The notes under the pieces are model-generated. The model did no database searches, was not told the origin of the DNA, and was given only the letters and a program-made list of their open reading frames with translations. 61,051 nucleotides of DNA from contig JAOAHX010000010.1 of the NCBI GenBank assembly GCA_026415035.1, positions 27,061 through 88,111 of the forward strand, read 5' to 3'. The DNA is from Thermodesulfobacteriota bacterium (GTDB taxonomy: Bacteria > Desulfobacterota > BSN033 > UBA1163). Shown here one piece after another: positions 34 through 56,524 of this stretch; positions within the stretch are counted from its first letter, which is position 1, and each line of letters begins with the position of its first letter. A program made the position numbers and the translations under genes.

Positions 34-772
34 CCAGAAACTCCCCCTCACCGCTCATCTTCAGGAGCTCCGAAAACGTCTCATCCTCTCCTTCATCTCC
101 ATCGGCGTTGGATTCGTCATCTGTTACGCCTTCTCCCAGACCCTCTTCGACATCCTCTCCCGCCCCCTCCTGAAGGTGATGCCTCCTGGAGGGAGCCTCG
201 TCTTCACGAGCGTGGCGGAGGCCTTCTTCACCTACATGAAGGTCGCCTTTGTCGCCGGCCTCATGCTGGCCTCCCCTTTCGTCCTCTACCAGATCTGGGC
301 CTTCGTGGCCCCCGGCCTCTACCGCCACGAAAAGCAGTACGTGATCCCCTTTGTCACGGCAGGCTCTTTCTTTTTCGTCCTGGGAATCCTCTTTGCCTAC
401 TTCGTCGCCATTCCCGTGGGGTTCAAATTCCTCCTGGGCTATGCCACGGACTTCATCAAGCCGATGCCGAGCATGAAGGAGTACCTCTCCTTCAGCCTCA
501 AGTTTATCCTGGCCTTTGGGCTCGTCTTTCAATTTCCTGTCGTCCTCGTCTTGCTGGCGCGAATCGGGGTGGTCGATGCGAGGAGCATGGCCAGGCACAG
601 AAAGTATGCGATCCTCCTGATCTTTATCTTTGCGGCCGTGCTCACCCCGCCGGACATCCTCTCGCAACTTCTCATGGCCATCCCATTGATGGGGCTTTAC
701 GAACTGAGCATCCTCCTCTCGAAGGTCTTCGGAAAGAAGCGGAGCCCCCCCGAGGCGGAGAAGGGGGATTGA
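26..772 (+). CDS. tatC: Sec-independent protein translocase TatC
   Basis: TatC is the polytopic membrane component of the twin-arginine translocase; it recognises the RR signal peptide of folded proteins with TatB and recruits TatA. The 248-residue product has the family's conserved N-terminal HLQELRKRL (about 11-19), the PFVLYQIWAFVAPGLY block (about 85-100) and six hydrophobic segments, at normal length. The ATG at 26 overlaps the preceding frame, suggesting it is the last gene of a tat operon cut by the window edge. Molybdenum and Fe-S enzymes elsewhere in the window are typical of Tat-using anaerobes, although the Mo subunit here shows no RR signal itself. Confidence 0.97.
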   Translation: MDDQKLPLTAHLQELRKRLILSFISIGVGFVICYAFSQTLFDILSRPLLKVMPPGGSLVFTSVAEAFFTYMKVAFVAGLMLASPFVLYQIWAFVAPGLYRHEKQYVIPFVTAGSFFFVLGILFAYFVAIPVGFKFLLGYATDFIKPMPSMKEYLSFSLKFILAFGLVFQFPVVLVLLARIGVVDARSMARHRKYAILLIFIFAAVLTPPDILSQLLMAIPLMGLYELSILLSKVFGKKRSPPEAEKGD

Positions 773-13781: not shown

Positions 13782-14567
13782 TCAGACGAACCACTTCATC
13801 GAGACCACGTTCACCCCCGAGGCCTTCAGCTCTTCCCGGATCCTCCTGACCATCTGGACCGCGGCAGGATTGTCTCCGTGGACGCAGAGCGTATCGGCCC
13901 AGAGATCGATCTCCGTTCCGTCGATGGCCACGACCTTTCCCTCGACCGCCATCTTCAAGGCCCTTTTGGCCACAAGCTCGTGATCCTCGATCACCGCTCC
14001 CTTCTCCCTCCGGGGGACGAGGGAGCCGTCTCTGCGGTAAGCCCTGTCGGGAAAGGCCTCGAAGGCGATGCGGATCCCGTAACGTTTCCCCATCTCGAGA
14101 AGGGGTTCGTTGTTCGAGGAGGCGAGGGCGACTAGGATGATCTCCTTGTCCACTTTCGAGATCGCCTCGGCCATGGCCTCCCAGATCCTCGGATTGGCCA
14201 CGGCCATGTTGTAGAGCGCTCCGTGGGCCTTCACATGCTGAAGCCGAAGCCCTTGAGAGACGACAAAGGCCTGGAGCGCACCGGTCTGGTAGACGATATA
14301 GTCCTGGATCTCCTCGAGGGTGGCATCGAGATTCCTTCTGCCAAAGCCGATCAGGTCCGGAAAGCCGGGATGGGCCCCCACCTCCACGCCATATCGCTTC
14401 GCCAAGGCGACGGTCTTTCGCATCACCGAGGGATCTCCGGCATGGAACCCGCAGGCGATGTTGGCAGAGGTGAGGTAGGGGATCACCTCCTCGTCCATCC
14501 CCAGTTTGTAGGCACCGAAGCTCTCTCCCACGTCGGAGTTTAGGTCGATCTGGATCTTGCTGCTCAT
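13782..14567 (-). CDS. pxpA: 5-oxoprolinase subunit PxpA (LamB/YcsF family)
   Basis: This 261-residue protein belongs to the LamB/YcsF family, whose PxpA member acts with PxpB and PxpC to hydrolyse 5-oxoproline to glutamate using ATP. The conserved IDLNSDVGESFGAYKLG stands at the N-terminus, with SANIACGFHAGDP, GAHPGFPD and VKAHGALYN following. The ATG at 14567 has GGAGGAG upstream and overlaps the ferredoxin stop by four bases. No pxpB or pxpC is nearby. Tight coupling to a 2-oxoacid:ferredoxin oxidoreductase suggests a link between glutamate recovery and 2-oxoglutarate, which is inference. Confidence 0.88.
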   Translation of the reverse strand: MSSKIQIDLNSDVGESFGAYKLGMDEEVIPYLTSANIACGFHAGDPSVMRKTVALAKRYGVEVGAHPGFPDLIGFGRRNLDATLEEIQDYIVYQTGALQAFVVSQGLRLQHVKAHGALYNMAVANPRIWEAMAEAISKVDKEIILVALASSNNEPLLEMGKRYGIRIAFEAFPDRAYRRDGSLVPRREKGAVIEDHELVAKRALKMAVEGKVVAIDGTEIDLWADTLCVHGDNPAAVQMVRRIREELKASGVNVVSMKWFV

Positions 14568-14914
14568 CTTGACTCCTCCAGGACCATCTCGATCGCCCCC
14601 TTCGGGCAGATGGCGGCGCAGATGCCACAGCCCTTGCAGTAGTCGAGGTCGATCTGGACCTCTCCGGTCTTCTCGTCGCGGGTGATGCAGAGATCGGGAC
14701 AGAGGAGACTGCAGAGATCGCAGGACTGGCAATCCCTCAGCCCGAGACACCGCTCCGCCTCCCGGACCGCCTCTTCCCTGAGAAGACCCTCCTCCATCGA
14801 GGGCTCGCCTTTTCTCCTGTCCCTCGTCGAAGGGGCTTTCCCTCTAACCTTCTGAACCGCCTCTTTTTTACATTCCCTGGTCATACCCCGAAGGACGAAC
14901 TCCTCAAAGGTCAC
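14564..14914 (-). CDS. 2[4Fe-4S] ferredoxin-like subunit of the Kor complex
   Basis: The protein has an N-terminal basic extension and two cluster motifs, CQSCDLCSLLCP and CKGCGICAAICP, each CxxCxxCxxxC(P). In four-subunit 2-oxoacid:ferredoxin oxidoreductases this is the delta (ferredoxin) subunit. Here it stands at the end of the Kor gene series rather than at its head. GTG 14914 directly follows the upstream stop; ATG 14884 is an alternative start that would shorten the basic tail. It probably passes electrons between the oxidoreductase and the GltD-like flavoprotein encoded just upstream. Confidence 0.87.
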   Translation of the reverse strand: MTFEEFVLRGMTRECKKEAVQKVRGKAPSTRDRRKGEPSMEEGLLREEAVREAERCLGLRDCQSCDLCSLLCPDLCITRDEKTGEVQIDLDYCKGCGICAAICPKGAIEMVLEESR

Positions 14915-16291
14915 TCATCTCAGATACTCGGCAATGGCCTCTGCCCCTCTCTTCCCTGCTGCGATGGCCTCGATGGCCCAGCCCGGTCCGGTCACCATAT
15001 CACCGCCCGCAAAGACCCCCTTGAGATTCGTCTGACCTTTCTCATCGACCCGTACCGTTCCGTCAGGATTTCTCTCAAGCCCTTTTAAATAGCGAGAATC
15101 GATTCCCTGGCCGATCGCGGGGATGATCATATCGGCCTCGACCGTGAAATTGGAGCCTTCCACCGGAACCGGCCTTCTCCGTCCCGTCTCGTCCGGCTCG
15201 GCAAGCCGCATCCGGATACACTCCATCCCAGAAACCCTTCCCGCCCTTCCCGTGATCCTGACCGGTGCGGTGAGGAAGTGAAGTCTCACTCCTTCCCTGA
15301 CGGCCTGATCGACCTCCTCGGCGATGGCCGGCATCTCTCTCCTCGAACGCCTGTAATAGAGATCGATCCTTTTTGCACCGAGCCGAAGCAAACACCGGGC
15401 CACATCGATGGCCACATTTCCGCCGCCGATGACCGCGACCTTACTGCCCGTTTCGACCTTCCTGCCGAGATTGACCTTTCTCAAAAACTCGACTCCAGGA
15501 TGAACTCCCTGAAGGGACTCTCCCGGGATGTTCAGCCTTAAACTTCGGTGAGCCCCCATCGAGAGGAAGATGGCATCAAAGCCCGAACGCTGAAGGATCG
15601 TTCCGTCTCCTTCCAAACGGAAGGGCCGATTCACCTCCATCTCCACCCCCAGCCTCCGGATCCCTTCGACCTCCATCTCCAGGACCTCTCTCGGCAAACG
15701 AAAGGAGGGGATTCCCACCCGGAGCATCCCACCCAGGACGGGAAGGGCTTCGAAGAGCGTCACCCTGAAGCCCTTGAGGGTCAGATCGTTGGCACAGGCC
15801 AGGCCAGCCGGACCAGAACCCACCACCAAGATCCTCTCCCGTCTCATCCTTCCCGCCACCTTCCACCTCTGCTCACTCCGGCCCTGCTCTGCGATAAAGC
15901 GCTTGAGCAACCGGATGGGGACCGGGCGATCCACGCCCTCTCTCAGACAGGCTTCCTCGCAGGGATGGTGGCAGATGTAGCCGCAGACGCCGGGCAGGGG
16001 ATTGACCTCGCGGATCAGGTCGAGGGCCTCCCTGTACTTCCCTTTGGCGATCAGGGCCACATAGCCCCTCGCATCCTGATGGATGGGGCAGGCCTCCTGA
16101 CAGGGAGGAAGGGGGATCCTTCCCTTTGAAGGAGGATCGGCCATCTTTTCGCGATAGAGCGTCCCTCGGAGGCTCTCCTCCTCCTTCCGGTATTCGGGAA
16201 TCCACTCCGCAGGACATCCCCTCAGGCAGATGTCGCAACTACGGCATTTAGAAGGGTGGAGCAGGGGGCGATGGGTTCTTCCTTCAACCAT
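14915..16291 (-). CDS. GltD-like NAD(P)H:ferredoxin-type flavoprotein
   Basis: The 458-residue protein has an extra N-terminal [4Fe-4S] motif (Cys16, 19, 22, 26). Next comes the GltD-type cluster domain (cysteines 64, 68, 103, 107, 111, 115), then two Rossmann folds: FAD-binding GSGPAG at 158-163 and NAD(P)-binding VIGGGNVAIDVA around 285. It resembles the glutamate synthase small subunit and NfnB, but no glutamate synthase large subunit is present. It lies inside the korCBA operon, overlapping korC by eight bases, so a role linking the Kor ferredoxin pool to NAD(P)H is likely. The added N-terminal cluster could be the ferredoxin contact. Confidence 0.85.
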   Translation of the reverse strand: MVEGRTHRPLLHPSKCRSCDICLRGCPAEWIPEYRKEEESLRGTLYREKMADPPSKGRIPLPPCQEACPIHQDARGYVALIAKGKYREALDLIREVNPLPGVCGYICHHPCEEACLREGVDRPVPIRLLKRFIAEQGRSEQRWKVAGRMRRERILVVGSGPAGLACANDLTLKGFRVTLFEALPVLGGMLRVGIPSFRLPREVLEMEVEGIRRLGVEMEVNRPFRLEGDGTILQRSGFDAIFLSMGAHRSLRLNIPGESLQGVHPGVEFLRKVNLGRKVETGSKVAVIGGGNVAIDVARCLLRLGAKRIDLYYRRSRREMPAIAEEVDQAVREGVRLHFLTAPVRITGRAGRVSGMECIRMRLAEPDETGRRRPVPVEGSNFTVEADMIIPAIGQGIDSRYLKGLERNPDGTVRVDEKGQTNLKGVFAGGDMVTGPGWAIEAIAAGKRGAEAIAEYLR

Positions 16292-46863: not shown

Positions 46864-48276
46864 TCAATGGTTCATCAGATACTCGTGGATGGAGTTGGCC
46901 GCTTTCCTTCCCGCTCCCATGGCGAGGATGACGGTCGCCGAGCCGGTGACGATATCCCCGCCTGCCCAGACCCCTCTTTTGGACGTCTTTCCGGTCTCGG
47001 GATCGGTGACGATGTAGCCCCTCTTGTTCAGTTCGAGGCCTGGCGTGGTGGTGGTGAGAAGGGGGTTGGCACCGGTGCCGATGGCGACGACGGCCAAGTC
47101 GCATTCGAGCTGAAATTCCGAGCCCTTGATCGGGATGGGTCTCCGCCTCCCCGACTCGTCCGGCTCGCCCAGTTCCATGCGAAGGCACTCGACGCCCGTC
47201 ACCCAGCCGTTGTCGTCTCCTAAGAACCGGACGGGGGCGGTCAGGAGGTAGAACTGGACACCCTCCTCCTCGGCATGATGGATCTCCTCGATTCGGGCGG
47301 GCATCTCCTCCCTCGATCTCCGATAGATGATGCGGACGGTATCGGCGCCCAGGCGGATGGCGGTTCGAGCCGCATCCATGGCCACGTTTCCCGCTCCGAA
47401 GACGGCCACGTTCTTCCCCCGGGCGATGGGAGTGTCGTACTGGGGAAAGAGGTAGGCCTTCATCAGGTTGGATCGGGTCAGATACTCGTTGGCCGAGTAG
47501 ATGCCACAGAAATTCTCGCCGGGAATGTTTAAAAACGTCGGAAGGCCAGCTCCCAGCCCTAAGAAGACGGCATCGTACTCTTGGAGGAGTTCATCGACGG
47601 TCTCGATCCTGCCGATGACGCAGTTGCATTCGATTTTAACGCCCAACTGCTCCAGGTAGTTGACCTCGGCCTGGACGATATCCTTGGGCAGACGAAATTC
47701 GGGGATGCCGTAGATGAGGACGCCCCCTGGTTTATGGAGGGCCTCGAAGATGGTCACCTCGTGTCCCTTCAGGATGAGGTCTCCGGCCACGGTCAGGCCC
47801 GCAGGGCCTGAACCCACGACGGCCACCTTCTTCCCCGTGGACGGTGCCTTCTCTGGGATGAAGATCTGTCCCTTCTCCCGTTCCCAGTCGGCGGCAAATC
47901 GCTCGAGGCGGCCGATGGCCACCGGCTCGTCCTTCTTCCCGACGATGCAGAGCTTTTCGCACTGGTCCTCCTGGGGACAGACCCTTCCGCAGATGGCTGG
48001 CAGACTGTTCCGTTCCTTCAGTTTTCTGGCAGCGCCGACGAAGTCGCCCTCGAGGATCAGCTTGATGAAGGCCGGGATGTCGATCTCGACCGGACACCCC
48101 TCGATGCACTTCGGTTTCTTACACTGGATGCAACGGCTCGCCTCCAACTGGGCCAGCTCGGGCGTATACCCGTAAGGGACCTCGTTGAAATTCTTCGCCC
48201 TCACCTTGGGGTCCTGTTCGGGCATCTTCTGTCTCGGGATTTTCACTTTCTCCTTTTTCTCTTTTTCTTCGGCCAT
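46864..48276 (-). CDS. nfnB: NfnB-like NADPH-dependent flavoprotein (GltD family)
   Basis: NfnB is the large subunit of NADH-dependent ferredoxin:NADP+ oxidoreductase, an electron-bifurcating enzyme; close relatives were first called sulfide dehydrogenase or glutamate synthase small subunit. The 470-residue protein has an N-terminal domain with cysteines 49, 52, 57, 61 and 96, 100, 106, 110 for two [4Fe-4S] clusters, FAD-binding GSGPAG (155-160) and an NAD(P)-binding AVFGAGNVAMDAART region. The neighbouring nfnA supplies the partner. No glutamate synthase large subunit is nearby, supporting the Nfn assignment. Confidence 0.9.
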   Translation of the reverse strand: MAEEKEKKEKVKIPRQKMPEQDPKVRAKNFNEVPYGYTPELAQLEASRCIQCKKPKCIEGCPVEIDIPAFIKLILEGDFVGAARKLKERNSLPAICGRVCPQEDQCEKLCIVGKKDEPVAIGRLERFAADWEREKGQIFIPEKAPSTGKKVAVVGSGPAGLTVAGDLILKGHEVTIFEALHKPGGVLIYGIPEFRLPKDIVQAEVNYLEQLGVKIECNCVIGRIETVDELLQEYDAVFLGLGAGLPTFLNIPGENFCGIYSANEYLTRSNLMKAYLFPQYDTPIARGKNVAVFGAGNVAMDAARTAIRLGADTVRIIYRRSREEMPARIEEIHHAEEEGVQFYLLTAPVRFLGDDNGWVTGVECLRMELGEPDESGRRRPIPIKGSEFQLECDLAVVAIGTGANPLLTTTTPGLELNKRGYIVTDPETGKTSKRGVWAGGDIVTGSATVILAMGAGRKAANSIHEYLMNH

Positions 48277-48286
48277 CTTCCTTCCC

Positions 48287-49120
48287 CTATCGTCCCAACT
48301 CTTTAAACCGATCCATGGAGATCTTCTCTTCGGTCAGATAGGCCCTCTGCCGTTTGATCAGCTCGTCGTAGTCGACTAAATGGCCATCGAATTCCGGGCC
48401 ATCCACGCAGCAGAACATCGTCTTTCCCCCAACGGTGACCCGGCAGGCCCCGCACATCCCCGTGGCATCGACCATGATGGGGTTGAGGCTCACCATCGTC
48501 TTCACCCCGTACTCTTTCGTCATCTTGCAGAGGAACTTCATCATGGGCACCGGCCCGATCCCCACCACCAGTTTCACCTCCTTTTGCTCATCGAGGATCT
48601 TCTTGAGGACATCGGTGACGAAACCATGGTGGCCATAACTTCCGTCATCGGTCGTCACCCTCAGATCGTGGCTGGCCGCCCTCATCTCCTCCTCGAGGAT
48701 GAGAAGGTCCTTGGTCCGAGCGCCGATGATGGCGATGACATGATTCCCCGCCTCCTTGAAGGCCCTGGTGATGGGATAGACCACAGCCACCCCTGTCCCG
48801 CCACCCACGCAGACCACGGTTCCGAGATTTTCGATATGGGTGGGCCTTCCGAGGGGTCCGATAATGTCTTGAATCGTATCGCCCACGTTGAAGGTTCTCA
48901 AAAGGGCCGTGCTTTTTCCGACCACCTGAAAGATGAGATCGATCGTCCCATTGACCGGATCTGTCCCGGCCATGGTCAGGGGGATTCGCTCACCGGTCTC
49001 GTTGGCCCTCAAGACGACAAATTGACCAGGTTTCGCCTTCCTGGCAATCCTTGGGGCTTCTACCTTGAAATGACAGACGGTATTTTCGGCCATCTCCCTT
49101 TTGAATGTGATCCTGAACAA
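48287..49120 (-). CDS. nfnA: NfnA-like ferredoxin-NADP reductase subunit
   Basis: This is the small Nfn subunit, with FAD and one [2Fe-2S] cluster. The 277-residue product has the flavin motif ERIPLTMAG, the nucleotide-binding VCVGGGTGVAVVYPITRAFK and the C-terminal MCGACRVTVGGKTMFCCVDGPEFDGH, whose four cysteines bind [2Fe-2S]. The start is TTG 49120 behind GGGGAGGAG. An in-frame ATG at 49198 exists but lies upstream of the promoter, so those 26 codons are not transcribed from it. Together with nfnB it couples NADH, NADPH and ferredoxin pools. Confidence 0.9.
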   Translation of the reverse strand: MFRITFKREMAENTVCHFKVEAPRIARKAKPGQFVVLRANETGERIPLTMAGTDPVNGTIDLIFQVVGKSTALLRTFNVGDTIQDIIGPLGRPTHIENLGTVVCVGGGTGVAVVYPITRAFKEAGNHVIAIIGARTKDLLILEEEMRAASHDLRVTTDDGSYGHHGFVTDVLKKILDEQKEVKLVVGIGPVPMMKFLCKMTKEYGVKTMVSLNPIMVDATGMCGACRVTVGGKTMFCCVDGPEFDGHLVDYDELIKRQRAYLTEEKISMDRFKELGR

Positions 49121-49162
49121 GGCTCCTCCCCTTTCTGAAAAATATTTCACAAAGCCCGCTAA

Positions 49163-49191
49163 TATATAAACCACCCCACCTCCGAAGTCAA
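49163..49191 (-). promoter_or_regulatory. Promoter for nfnAB
   Basis: On the minus strand TTGACT (49191-49186), a 17-base spacer and TATATA (49168-49163) make a near-consensus promoter about 43 bases before TTG 49120. Confidence 0.7.
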
Positions 49192-49252
49192 TCATCAAAT
49201 TCCGACCGGTCTCATGGGCGTTTGGTCGAGGCCCCCCTAGTTTCGGAAGTTC

Positions 49253-54166: not shown

Positions 54167-56524
54167 TCAGGGAGATGAGGCTTCCAAGAGGGCCCGTTTG
54201 ATCAGGGTCTTGGTGATCTCGACCTTATAAAGATTCATCGGCAGAGGGACGGCACTTGTGACGGCCCGTTGAGCTGCAGCAGAGGCAAGCTCCTCGTCGA
54301 TGGGATGGCCGATGAGGGCCTCCTCGGCGGCCTTGGCCCGAATGGGCTCCGGTGCCACACCTCCGAGGGCGATGGATGCCCCCGCACATTTTCCGTTTTC
54401 GATTCTGAGGACCGAGGCGACGCTCACGATCCCGAAGTCGACCGGTGTCCTCAAGGTGAATTTTAGGAAGCTTTGTCTGGAGCCGTCTCTGCGAATCGGG
54501 ATCTGAACCTCCTTGACCACTTCCTCCGGTTCGAGAAGGGTCGAACGGGTGGCGGTTGCGGTGAAGAAGTCCTGGGCATCGATCGTCCTCTTGGAGGTGA
54601 CGACCCTGGCCTCGAGGGCGGTGAGGACGACGCCGAGGTCAGAAGGGGTGACGGCGATGCAACCGCAGTGGAAGCAGCGGCTCGCTTCGGTCTCGATCTC
54701 CTTCGGGTCGAGACTTCCCACCTCCTCCTTTTCCATCGTTTTTAGACGTTCGGCGACGGACAACAGGGGAAGCCTGACCCGGGAGGCCTCAACGAAGGAG
54801 GCGCTTGCATAGGGGGATTCTGACCTCCCCGTCGAAGGGAAGAGCGATTTGCCGCTCAAGGACCTCTCGATGAGATCCGCAGCCTCCCTGGCCGAGGCGA
54901 TGGCCTTTACCACCGTGGAGGGACCGCTTACGAGATCGCCCCCGGCAAAGAGGTTCTTTCCGAGCCAGAGGGCCGATGAATCCGTTTTAGACACCTTCTT
55001 TCGGAATTGGGCCGGGAGGAGAGAGAGATCTGGCTCTTCTCCCACGGCCTTGATGATCGCATCGAAGGGGGCGGTGAAATCAGAACCTTTTATGGGGATG
55101 GGCTTGGGGCGACCTGAGGCATCCGGAGGGCCAAGCCTAATCCGGATAGATTTTAGAAGGAAATCCCCTTCCCTTTTAACGATCTCCGTGGGCTGGGCAA
55201 GGAACTCGAATGCGACCCCCTCCTCAGCGGCCCTCTCCACCTCGTCCTTGAAGGCGGGCATCTCGGCCCGGGTGCGGCGATAGATCACGACCGGCTCTCC
55301 TCCAAGCCTCCGGAGGGTGCGGGCCACATCGATGGCCACATTGCCGCCTCCGATAACGGCCACCCTCTTTCCCGGGAGCTCTCGGAGCCCCTCGTTCACC
55401 CGGTTCAGGAATTGAAGGCCAGAGAGGGCGTATCGTTCGGCCTCGATGCCGAGGGGCCTCTCCTTCCAGGCCCCGGTCGCAAGGAAGACGGCATCGAAGT
55501 CTTTCATCAACGATGATAGGGGTAGCTCTTTTCCAACAGGGATGCCCACCTTGAACTTGACCCCCATCGCCTTCAAGGCCTCGATCTGCCTTCTCACGAT
55601 CTCTTTGGGCAACCGGTAAGCCGGGATGCTGTAAAGAAGCATCCCGCCAGGCTCTGAAGCCCTCTCAAATACCGTGATCCGATGACCCGCTCTCCGGAGG
55701 TAGTAGGCCGCTGCCAACCCGGCAGGTCCGGAGCCGACGATGGCGATGGATCTGCCTCCCTTCTTCTTTGGTGATGCGTAAAATTCGTCCCTCCTCTCGA
55801 GGACCCAGTCGCCAAGGAAGCGTTCGATGCTCCGGATGGCGACGGGTTCATCGAATTGGGTCCGGTTGCATTCCGGCTCGCAGAAGATAGGACAGACCCT
55901 TCCCGTGATGGCCGGCATGGGATTGAAGTCAAGAAGGATCCGGGCCGCCTCCGCGAGATCGCCCCTCCTCATCTCCTTCAAGAAGGCGGGGATATTTGTA
56001 TGAGCCGGACAATTTGAGGTACAAGGGTAGGACAAAAGGGGGGCTGCGCCGAATATGGAGTGATATCTGTGGTCTCCGGTCAAGGCGTTACAGAGCGTTC
56101 CCCCTTTTCGAAGGCAGAGGATCCTTCCGCCGAGGTGATCGGGATAGCGATAATACCAGCAACGGACATCCTGACAGAGATTTCCGCCGAGGGTGGCGAC
56201 GTTTCGGATCTGGGGGGTGGCTACCGAGCGGGCCGCATCGACCAGGGCCTTGCAATTCTCTTTGAGCAGAGGGGAACGGACGATATCGGAGAGCTTGGTC
56301 AAGGCCCCGATCTTCACCAGACCTTTCTCCTCTTTGATGTAGTCGAGGTCTGGGAGGGTCTTGATGTTGATGACGACTTCGGGATAATCCGGAAGGCACT
56401 CCGCCTTGAGGGTCGGGATCAGGTCGGTGCCCCCTGCATTGAGGACCGCCTTTCCTTCGTACTCTTTGAGGAGGGCCGAGGCCTCTTCGACGGTCTGTGC
56501 GTGAAGATGCCTAAAGGGTCTCAT
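54167..56524 (-). CDS. HcrB-like FAD subunit with inserted GltD-type NAD(P)H module
   Basis: In this 785-residue protein residues 1-160 are the first part of a molybdenum-hydroxylase FAD subunit (LNAGGTDLIP 28-37, TLGGNLC 111-117). It carries an HcrB-like cysteine series, Cys122, Cys137 and Cys145. Residues about 161-620 are a complete GltD-like module: Fe-S cysteines (168, 172, 211, 215, 219), FAD motif GSGPAG (264-269) and nucleotide motif IGGGNVAIDVA (391-401). The FAD subunit resumes at Cys622 (CIAVTPSDLGVVL) and continues to the end. In 4-hydroxybenzoyl-CoA reductase HcrB four cysteines of this loop bind [4Fe-4S], so the module sits between ligands three and four. The gene overlaps the Mo-subunit stop by 14 bases. 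Confidence 0.88.
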   Translation of the reverse strand: MRPFRHLHAQTVEEASALLKEYEGKAVLNAGGTDLIPTLKAECLPDYPEVVINIKTLPDLDYIKEEKGLVKIGALTKLSDIVRSPLLKENCKALVDAARSVATPQIRNVATLGGNLCQDVRCWYYRYPDHLGGRILCLRKGGTLCNALTGDHRYHSIFGAAPLLSYPCTSNCPAHTNIPAFLKEMRRGDLAEAARILLDFNPMPAITGRVCPIFCEPECNRTQFDEPVAIRSIERFLGDWVLERRDEFYASPKKKGGRSIAIVGSGPAGLAAAYYLRRAGHRITVFERASEPGGMLLYSIPAYRLPKEIVRRQIEALKAMGVKFKVGIPVGKELPLSSLMKDFDAVFLATGAWKERPLGIEAERYALSGLQFLNRVNEGLRELPGKRVAVIGGGNVAIDVARTLRRLGGEPVVIYRRTRAEMPAFKDEVERAAEEGVAFEFLAQPTEIVKREGDFLLKSIRIRLGPPDASGRPKPIPIKGSDFTAPFDAIIKAVGEEPDLSLLPAQFRKKVSKTDSSALWLGKNLFAGGDLVSGPSTVVKAIASAREAADLIERSLSGKSLFPSTGRSESPYASASFVEASRVRLPLLSVAERLKTMEKEEVGSLDPKEIETEASRCFHCGCIAVTPSDLGVVLTALEARVVTSKRTIDAQDFFTATATRSTLLEPEEVVKEVQIPIRRDGSRQSFLKFTLRTPVDFGIVSVASVLRIENGKCAGASIALGGVAPEPIRAKAAEEALIGHPIDEELASAAAQRAVTSAVPLPMNLYKVEITKTLIKRALLEASSP

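Follow-up and report, generated by a model that had tools for sequence, protein, structure and literature searches.

Organization of the fused gene and its operon

The window, which is the whole 61,051-nucleotide stretch of DNA analyzed here, carries an apparent four-gene operon in which the genes for a CoA ligase, a 2Fe-2S subunit, a molybdenum (Mo) subunit and, in last place, a fused FAD subunit follow each other, overlapping or separated by just a few bases (Table 1). The fused gene begins with an ATG at 56524 and ends with a stop codon at 54167–54169; the coordinates given for it in the earlier note were correct, but the minus strand has to be added. Residues are numbered here from Met1, and Pfam and alignment positions run one higher. 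With the latter numbering, FAD_binding_5 was detected at 5–119 (117 bits, cut-off 27), Fer4_20 at 168–245 (81 bits, cut-off 26), Pyr_redox_2 at 260–546 (99 bits, cut-off 26) and CO_deh_flav_C at 693–783 (64 bits, cut-off 26). This is the order anticipated for a domain search, namely an FAD-subunit N-part, GltD and an FAD-subunit C-part, and all scores were well over the Pfam cut-offs. A second, weaker FAD_binding_5 stretch was located past the insert, and the four Pfam families were present, in identical order, in all of the 45 relatives scanned.

Table 1. Features of the fused gene and its operon in the window
Feature	Residues or length	Position	Strand	Basis or remark
Fused gene: XO-family Mo enzyme FAD subunit with internal GltD/NfnB-type module	785 aa	54167..56524	-	Pfam, relatives
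FAD-subunit N-part (FAD_binding_5)	1-160	56045..56524	-	Pfam, alignment to 5y6q_B
Cluster-loop cysteines in N-part	C122, C137, C145	56159-56161, 56114-56116, 56090-56092	-	Invariant, 53/53
Insert, GltD/NfnB-type	~162-621	54662..56041	-	Comparison with unfused homologs (own genome, genus) and 5y6q_B
Fer4_20 Fe-S domain	167-244	55793..56026	-	Pfam
Presumed cluster ligands of Fer4_20 domain	C168, C172, C211, C215, C219, E234			All invariant
FAD/NAD(P)-binding domain (Pyr_redox_2)	259-545	54890..55750	-	Pfam
Junction motif EASRCFHCGC	613-622 (C617, C620, C622)	54659..54688	-	Conservation, alignment
FAD-subunit C-part (CO_deh_flav_C)	622-785	54170..54661	-	Pfam
Mo (molybdopterin) subunit	766 aa	56511..58811	-	Pfam; overlaps fused-gene start by 14 bases
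2x[2Fe-2S] subunit	168 aa	58816..59322	-	Pfam
AMP-forming acyl-CoA ligase, first operon gene	554 aa	59319..60983	-	Pfam; 4-base overlap with next gene

The domain content of the gene products is that of a three-subunit enzyme of the xanthine-oxidase (XO) family of molybdenum hydroxylases, with Ald_Xan_dh_C, MoCoBD_1 and MoCoBD_2 in the Mo subunit, Fer2 and Fer2_2 in the small subunit, and FAD_binding_5 and CO_deh_flav_C in the medium subunit. The best PDB match of the Mo subunit was 1rm6_A (HcrA), with which it shared 31.5% identity. Filing the enzyme as a 4-hydroxybenzoyl-CoA reductase (HCR) was rejected, because all three subunits scored well under the HCR equivalog cut-offs (TIGR03193/03194/03195: 155.8 of 257.8, 391.1 of 994.6 and 122.9 of 404.6 bits).

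The arrangement of the subunit genes was largely retained among the fusion loci described below: the Mo subunit gene was directly upstream of the fusion at 49 of the 54 testable loci, and the 2Fe-2S subunit gene was nearby at 48 of 49. In two further species of the genus, a CoA ligase with 71% identity to that of the window is encoded next to the fusion operon. Overall, a CoA ligase was found near 6 of the 62 fusion loci, so that a CoA-ester substrate cannot hold for the whole family. Neighbors elsewhere, judged by eye and from sequence only, resembled genes for MFS, TRAP-type and ABC transporters as well as MocA-like genes. The rarity of the ligase and these lineage-specific neighbors suggest that substrates probably differ between lineages.

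Elsewhere in the window, positions 46864–49198 of the minus strand carry a gene for a free-standing NfnB-like protein next to one for an NfnA-like (DHODB-type) protein, about 5 kb from the fusion; this pair could plausibly serve the organism as a bifurcating supply of NADP(H). A short GltD-like protein of 458 aa with Fer4_20 and Pyr_redox_2 is encoded at 14915–16291 (minus strand), beside a LamB/YcsF gene (13782–14750).

Position of the insertion in the [4Fe-4S] loop

The empty insertion site was observed in unfused homologs. The loop sequence is RCWYYRNAPFHCWLKGGRACFAIGGENAYHAILGAGHCQAVHPSDLAPAL in the homolog encoded by the genome of the window itself (L030:3827-4792) and RCWYYRYPCHIGGPILCLRKGGNTCPAVRGDHRYHAIMGGKGCMAVCPSDLA in one from another species of the genus that has no fusion (G011, L188). 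At the corresponding site the fused protein reads RCWYYRYPDHLGGRILCLRKGGTLCNALTGDHRYHSIFGA, followed by approximately 460 residues of insert and then by CGCIAVTPSDLGVVL. When the two flanks were joined, the aldehyde oxidase medium subunit 5y6q_B aligned with them end to end, with the four cysteines in register. Since both the flanks and the empty sites align across the join, the insertion falls between the third and the fourth cysteine of an HCR/PaoB-type [4Fe-4S] loop. The earlier note had assigned the insertion to an HcrB-type cluster loop and had taken C622 for its fourth cysteine, and both assignments are borne out by the unbroken alignment of the unfused homologs and 5y6q_B. The fused FAD subunit accordingly has the four-cysteine loop of a predicted [4Fe-4S] cluster, made up of C122, C137, C145 and C622, each located where it had been placed before; C622 would complete this cluster from the far side of the insert. 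Two further, unfused FAD subunits with a four-cysteine loop, L029 and L030 (G000:C6 and G000:C3), are encoded in the same genome. The loop of L029 has the HcrB spacing, and that of L030 is longer.

A displaced cysteine pair in the GltD module

The insert is of the GltD/NfnB type, in that Fer4_20 is followed by Pyr_redox_2, both over their Pfam cut-offs. GltD, NfnB and DPD start with the motif EAxRCxxC, the two cysteines of which are ligands of the distal cluster. An N-terminal EAxRCxxC ahead of CxxxCP was absent before C168 in the insert, which starts at C168xxxC172P; the sequence EASRCFHC (C617, C620) is found at its end and is followed by G-C622. The module, described previously as complete, thus has its Fer4_20 and FAD/NAD(P) domains, but not in the ordinary arrangement, as the first two cluster cysteines are at the C-terminal end. 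The same C-terminal tail, EAxRCxxCGC behind the FAD/NAD(P) domain of a GltD module, is present in NfnA and StnC-like PDB chains, which were the best PDB matches of the insert.

Together with C168 and C219, the pair C617 and C620 would make up the distal cluster. C620 and C622 are one glycine apart, and two presumed cluster ligands so spaced should, on geometric grounds, lie close to each other. These two cysteines would join the distal cluster of the GltD module to the loop cluster of the FAD subunit.

Predicted structure

AlphaFold2 modeling of the window protein with 52 relatives gave a pLDDT of 90.7 and a pTM of 0.86, and similar values were obtained for a Hungatella protein, L091 (pLDDT 90.1, pTM 0.86). 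In the window model, pLDDT was lower (76–84) for the loop at residues 121–150. HcrB (1rm6_B) was aligned to the model by VIA-align with a Z of 38 over 310 of 323 residues at 2.0 Å, spanning residues 1..785, and the GltD part of StnC (8oh5_C) was aligned with a Z of 45.5 over 445 residues at 163..620. Both matches were reproduced with the L091 model. FAD subunits with a cluster loop aligned over 303–318 residues and loopless ones over approximately 266–278, which suggests that the cluster loop is reproduced in the models. As predicted by AlphaFold2, a whole HcrB-like domain is restored around a whole StnC/NfnA-like GltD module. A structure prediction of the protein alone had been proposed as a check on whether C622 folds back to the other loop cysteines, and the fold alignments make it unlikely that C622 lies far from C122, C137 and C145.

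Distribution and conservation of the fusion

A search of the window's own genome yielded one full-length match, plus many separate GltD and FAD-subunit genes. Full-length fusions were found in five of ten species of the genus (63–71% identity) and in three further families of the phylum (49–59% identity). Among 395 genomes drawn from the phylum, 12 exceeded the threshold, 11 of them with fusions and one with a plain GltD; one of the fusions was cut by a contig end and one had a broken frame. A wider search, in which genome contigs were scanned with an alignment of the C-terminal junction, gave 62 fusion loci in about six phyla, of which 53 were full-length. By hand tally of the record titles, 20 of the 62 loci were Deltaproteobacteria-type, 21 were from Clostridia, 10 from Chloroflexi, 9 from Actinobacteria, 1 from a Spirochaete and 1 from SAR324. 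The sources include the complete or isolate genomes of Clostridium asparagiforme DSM 15981 (CP102272), Hungatella hathewayi (CP102274), Angelakisella massiliensis and NZ_LT629945.

The genome containing the window is a draft in 81 contigs, and the earlier note had named an assembly fusion of two genes as a finding that would overturn its proposal. The identical join recurred across five species of the genus, three other families of the phylum and the complete or isolate genomes CP102272, CP102274 and NZ_LT629945. This recurrence excludes such an origin, and the probability that the gene is an assembly or sequencing artifact is negligible.

The cysteines C122, C137, C145, C168, C172, C211, C215, C219, C617, C620 and C622 were invariant in the 53 relatives, in which C617, C620 and C622 formed part of the search pattern. 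These last three were also present in 11 of 11 proteins from a set collected by whole-protein or profile search, and their equivalents are kept in Enterocloster copies outside the search pattern (RCMNCGCYAV). C117, which is no proposed ligand, was replaced by A or G in ten of the 53. Both E234, at the site of the Glu ligand of the NfnB proximal cluster, and the flavin-site Arg R304 were invariant, as were, over about six phyla, the two nucleotide-binding glycine motifs of the insert.

Two individual cases may be recorded here. In one fused copy (L047; G102:C159) a TGA interrupts the insert in its second half and the coding sequence runs onward in another frame, which may be a sequencing error or mark a pseudogene. 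The gut isolate of C. asparagiforme (G400) carries three distinct fusions (C1:1474711, C1:3045514 and C1:4132785), each with its own Mo subunit, indicating that the family has diversified within one genome.

Origin of the insert and apparent exchange of the NAD(P) domain

In a phylogenetic tree with 26 sampled free GltD sequences, the inserts formed one group (SH-aLRT 99), which indicates that the module was captured once within this sample. The tree of the FAD-subunit flanks required four changes, with several unfused rows nested among the fused ones. The nested unfused FAD subunits are best read as later losses or exchanges, and their position suggests that, over evolutionary time, the core enzyme can do without the insert.

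The Pyr_redox_2 domain of the window protein contains the NADPH-like motif GGGN...IYRRTRAEMPA. Among the 53 inserts, 19, including that of the window, carried YRR at this site and 33 carried CLE or CVE; the YRR class appears NADPH-like by comparison with GltD and NfnB. Two Syntrophorhabdaceae-type fusions, L050 and L053, were 77% and 62% identical in their flanks and 69–70% identical in the Fe-S and FAD parts of the insert, but just 45% and 33% identical in the NAD(P) part. Their NAD(P) domains (approximately 346–560 of the insert in window numbering) differ in class (YRR versus CLE), and the first half of the NAD(P) part of L050 was 73% identical to that of a Chloroflexi fusion, L058. This domain alone appears to have been swapped, which speaks for a nucleotide site that is in use.

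Proposed electron path

To our knowledge, HCR-type enzymes depend on ferredoxin, and few reductive enzymes of the XO family are known. A complete NAD(P)H module placed at the cluster loop and recurring across about six phyla suggests that the enzyme encoded in the window probably takes its electrons directly from NAD(P)H and not from ferredoxin. We consider it likely that the fusion provides an HCR-like molybdo-hydroxylase with a hard-wired NAD(P)H port, which most probably serves a reductive reaction. The protein would be the medium subunit of a three-subunit XO-family molybdoenzyme, with a GltD/NfnB-type module built in at the [4Fe-4S] loop. NADPH (probably, judging from the YRR motif) would reduce the insert's own FAD, and single electrons would pass from this FAD to the proximal cluster (C172, C211, C215, E234), then to the distal cluster (C168 and C219 with the displaced pair C617 and C620) and on to the HCR/PaoB-type loop cluster (C122, C137, C145, C622). 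From the loop cluster they would move to the flavin of the FAD subunit, then through the pair of [2Fe-2S] clusters in the small subunit, and finally to the Mo center. The fused protein would in this way stand in for the ferredoxin, or separate reductase, that feeds 4-hydroxybenzoyl-CoA reductase. Because the operon includes a CoA ligase, an aromatic or other acyl-CoA would most likely be the substrate that is reduced in this genus.

In HCR, the loop cluster hands electrons to FAD and onward to Mo. In StnC, the GltD module oxidizes NADPH and electrons run along [4Fe-4S] clusters 9–18 Å apart (PMC10482914). The union of these two chains at the shared junction would be the simplest reading of the fused protein. 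Reduction is favored by the resemblance to HCR and by the operon context, since a subunit like that of HCR must be supplied with electrons, which the insert would deliver at that entry point. The reverse flow, in which the Mo site hydroxylates its substrate and the GltD module passes the electrons to NAD(P)+ as in an NAD(P)+-linked dehydrogenase, has in its favor that most XO-family enzymes are oxidative, that the Mo subunit falls short of the HCR equivalog cut-off (391 versus 995 bits), and that lineage-specific neighbors, which from their sequences include MFS carriers and TRAP-type and ABC transporters, suggest differing substrates. A loop of the HCR/PaoB type and a Mo subunit resembling HcrA speak against it, yet PaoABC is oxidative and has a loop cluster. 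XO-family enzymes moreover possess an FAD site, which in XDH reacts directly with NAD+, and this would make an added Fe-S/flavin relay superfluous for oxidation. On these grounds we regard an oxidative enzyme as rather unlikely.

An insert FAD that splits electron pairs as in NfnB, with low-potential electrons going to the Mo/loop-cluster branch and a second acceptor also being served (flavin-based bifurcation or confurcation), is improbable. It is consistent with the invariance of E234, at the place of the NfnB Glu ligand, and of R304, which corresponds by motif to R201 of NfnB, and also with the Lys that replaces this Glu in the non-bifurcating homolog StnC (PMC10482914). R304-type Arg is present in StnC too, however, no second outlet is visible in the module, and an NfnA-like or other high-potential partner is neither fused to nor conserved adjacent to the fusion. 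It is likewise improbable that a bifurcating NfnB-type insert drives a low-potential electron through the shared-junction clusters to Mo, which would make the enzyme an energy-coupled molybdo-reductase in need of no reduced ferredoxin. The existence of unfused relatives would fit an insert that is passive or regulatory, binding a nucleotide or stabilizing the subunit outside the electron path, but neither the presumed cluster ligands nor the two glycine motifs vary across about six phyla, both junctions lie at cluster cysteines, and the NAD(P) domain switches between its YRR and CLE types as one unit; such a role therefore has very little probability. If the hard-wired NAD(P)H port is real, it would explain how such enzymes could run on NAD(P)H in fermenters and syntrophs. 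The signature CxxCGC-AV-PSD after a GltD module would pick out candidate reductive Mo enzymes in genomes, including those of gut Clostridia. The family would also offer a natural example of one redox protein inserted into another exactly at a cluster, and one in which NADPH-like and CLE-type nucleotide-binding domains appear to have replaced one another.

Comparison with known systems

A described example of the fused architecture was not found in the searchable literature, which was mostly without subscription papers, in agreement with the earlier statement that no enzyme with such wiring was known. In a 2018 survey of approximately 5,900 genomes, the new fusion partners listed for the DMSO-reductase family include GltD, whereas those for the XO family do not (PMC6147048). 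The architecture is real and widespread, and apparently an undescribed variant.

Ucdh, the urolithin C dehydroxylase of Enterocloster bolteae, was compared as an NADH-driven XO-family enzyme from a genus whose genomes carry fusions, and no fused member could be tied to a characterized enzyme. Ucdh is a three-subunit reductive XO-family enzyme that, when purified, uses NADH as donor and not ferredoxin; its catalytic subunit is approximately 32.7% identical and 49.2% similar to HcrA and has >90% orthologs in a few Enterocloster species (PMC12771579). The fusion-linked Mo subunit of Enterocloster (L136, L137 and L139) was at least 94% identical in three species and at most 45% identical in others, with 26% identity to HcrA. 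An adjacent unfused enzyme, found in five species, has a Mo subunit with 33.0% identity and 50% similarity to HcrA and an ordinary, loopless FAD subunit. The evidence conflicts, because the species distribution of Ucdh fits the fusion-linked Mo subunit and its HcrA identity fits the adjacent unfused enzyme; on balance, it points to the unfused enzyme.

HcrB of Thauera aromatica (1RM6, 1SB3) has the same FAD-subunit fold and the four-cysteine loop for an extra [4Fe-4S] cluster, but is without an insert and belongs to an enzyme that receives its electrons from ferredoxin. The medium subunits PaoB and that of the Methylobacillus aldehyde oxidase (5G5G, 5Y6Q) are also of the loop type, and 5y6q_B is unbroken across the join with its four loop cysteines in register; they differ in having no insert and in belonging to aldehyde oxidases. 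NfnB and GltD (4YLF, 5JCA, 2VDC) match the Fer4_20 and FAD/NAD(P) domains of the insert with Z of 33–38, and the Glu is kept at the place of the proximal-cluster ligand. Their EAxRCxxC is N-terminal, whereas that of the insert is C-terminal, and they are free-standing subunits and not nested. StnC and the NfnA of NfnABC (8OH5, 9BOV, 9N5U) are the closest to the insert, as they match it including the C-terminal EAxRCxxCGC tail, and in them an NADPH module feeds the cluster chain of a larger redox enzyme, as is proposed for the fusion. In StnC and NfnA, however, the module is joined end to end with NuoG/FdhF-like domains of the DMSO-reductase superfamily, whereas in the fused protein it is nested in an XO-family FAD subunit.
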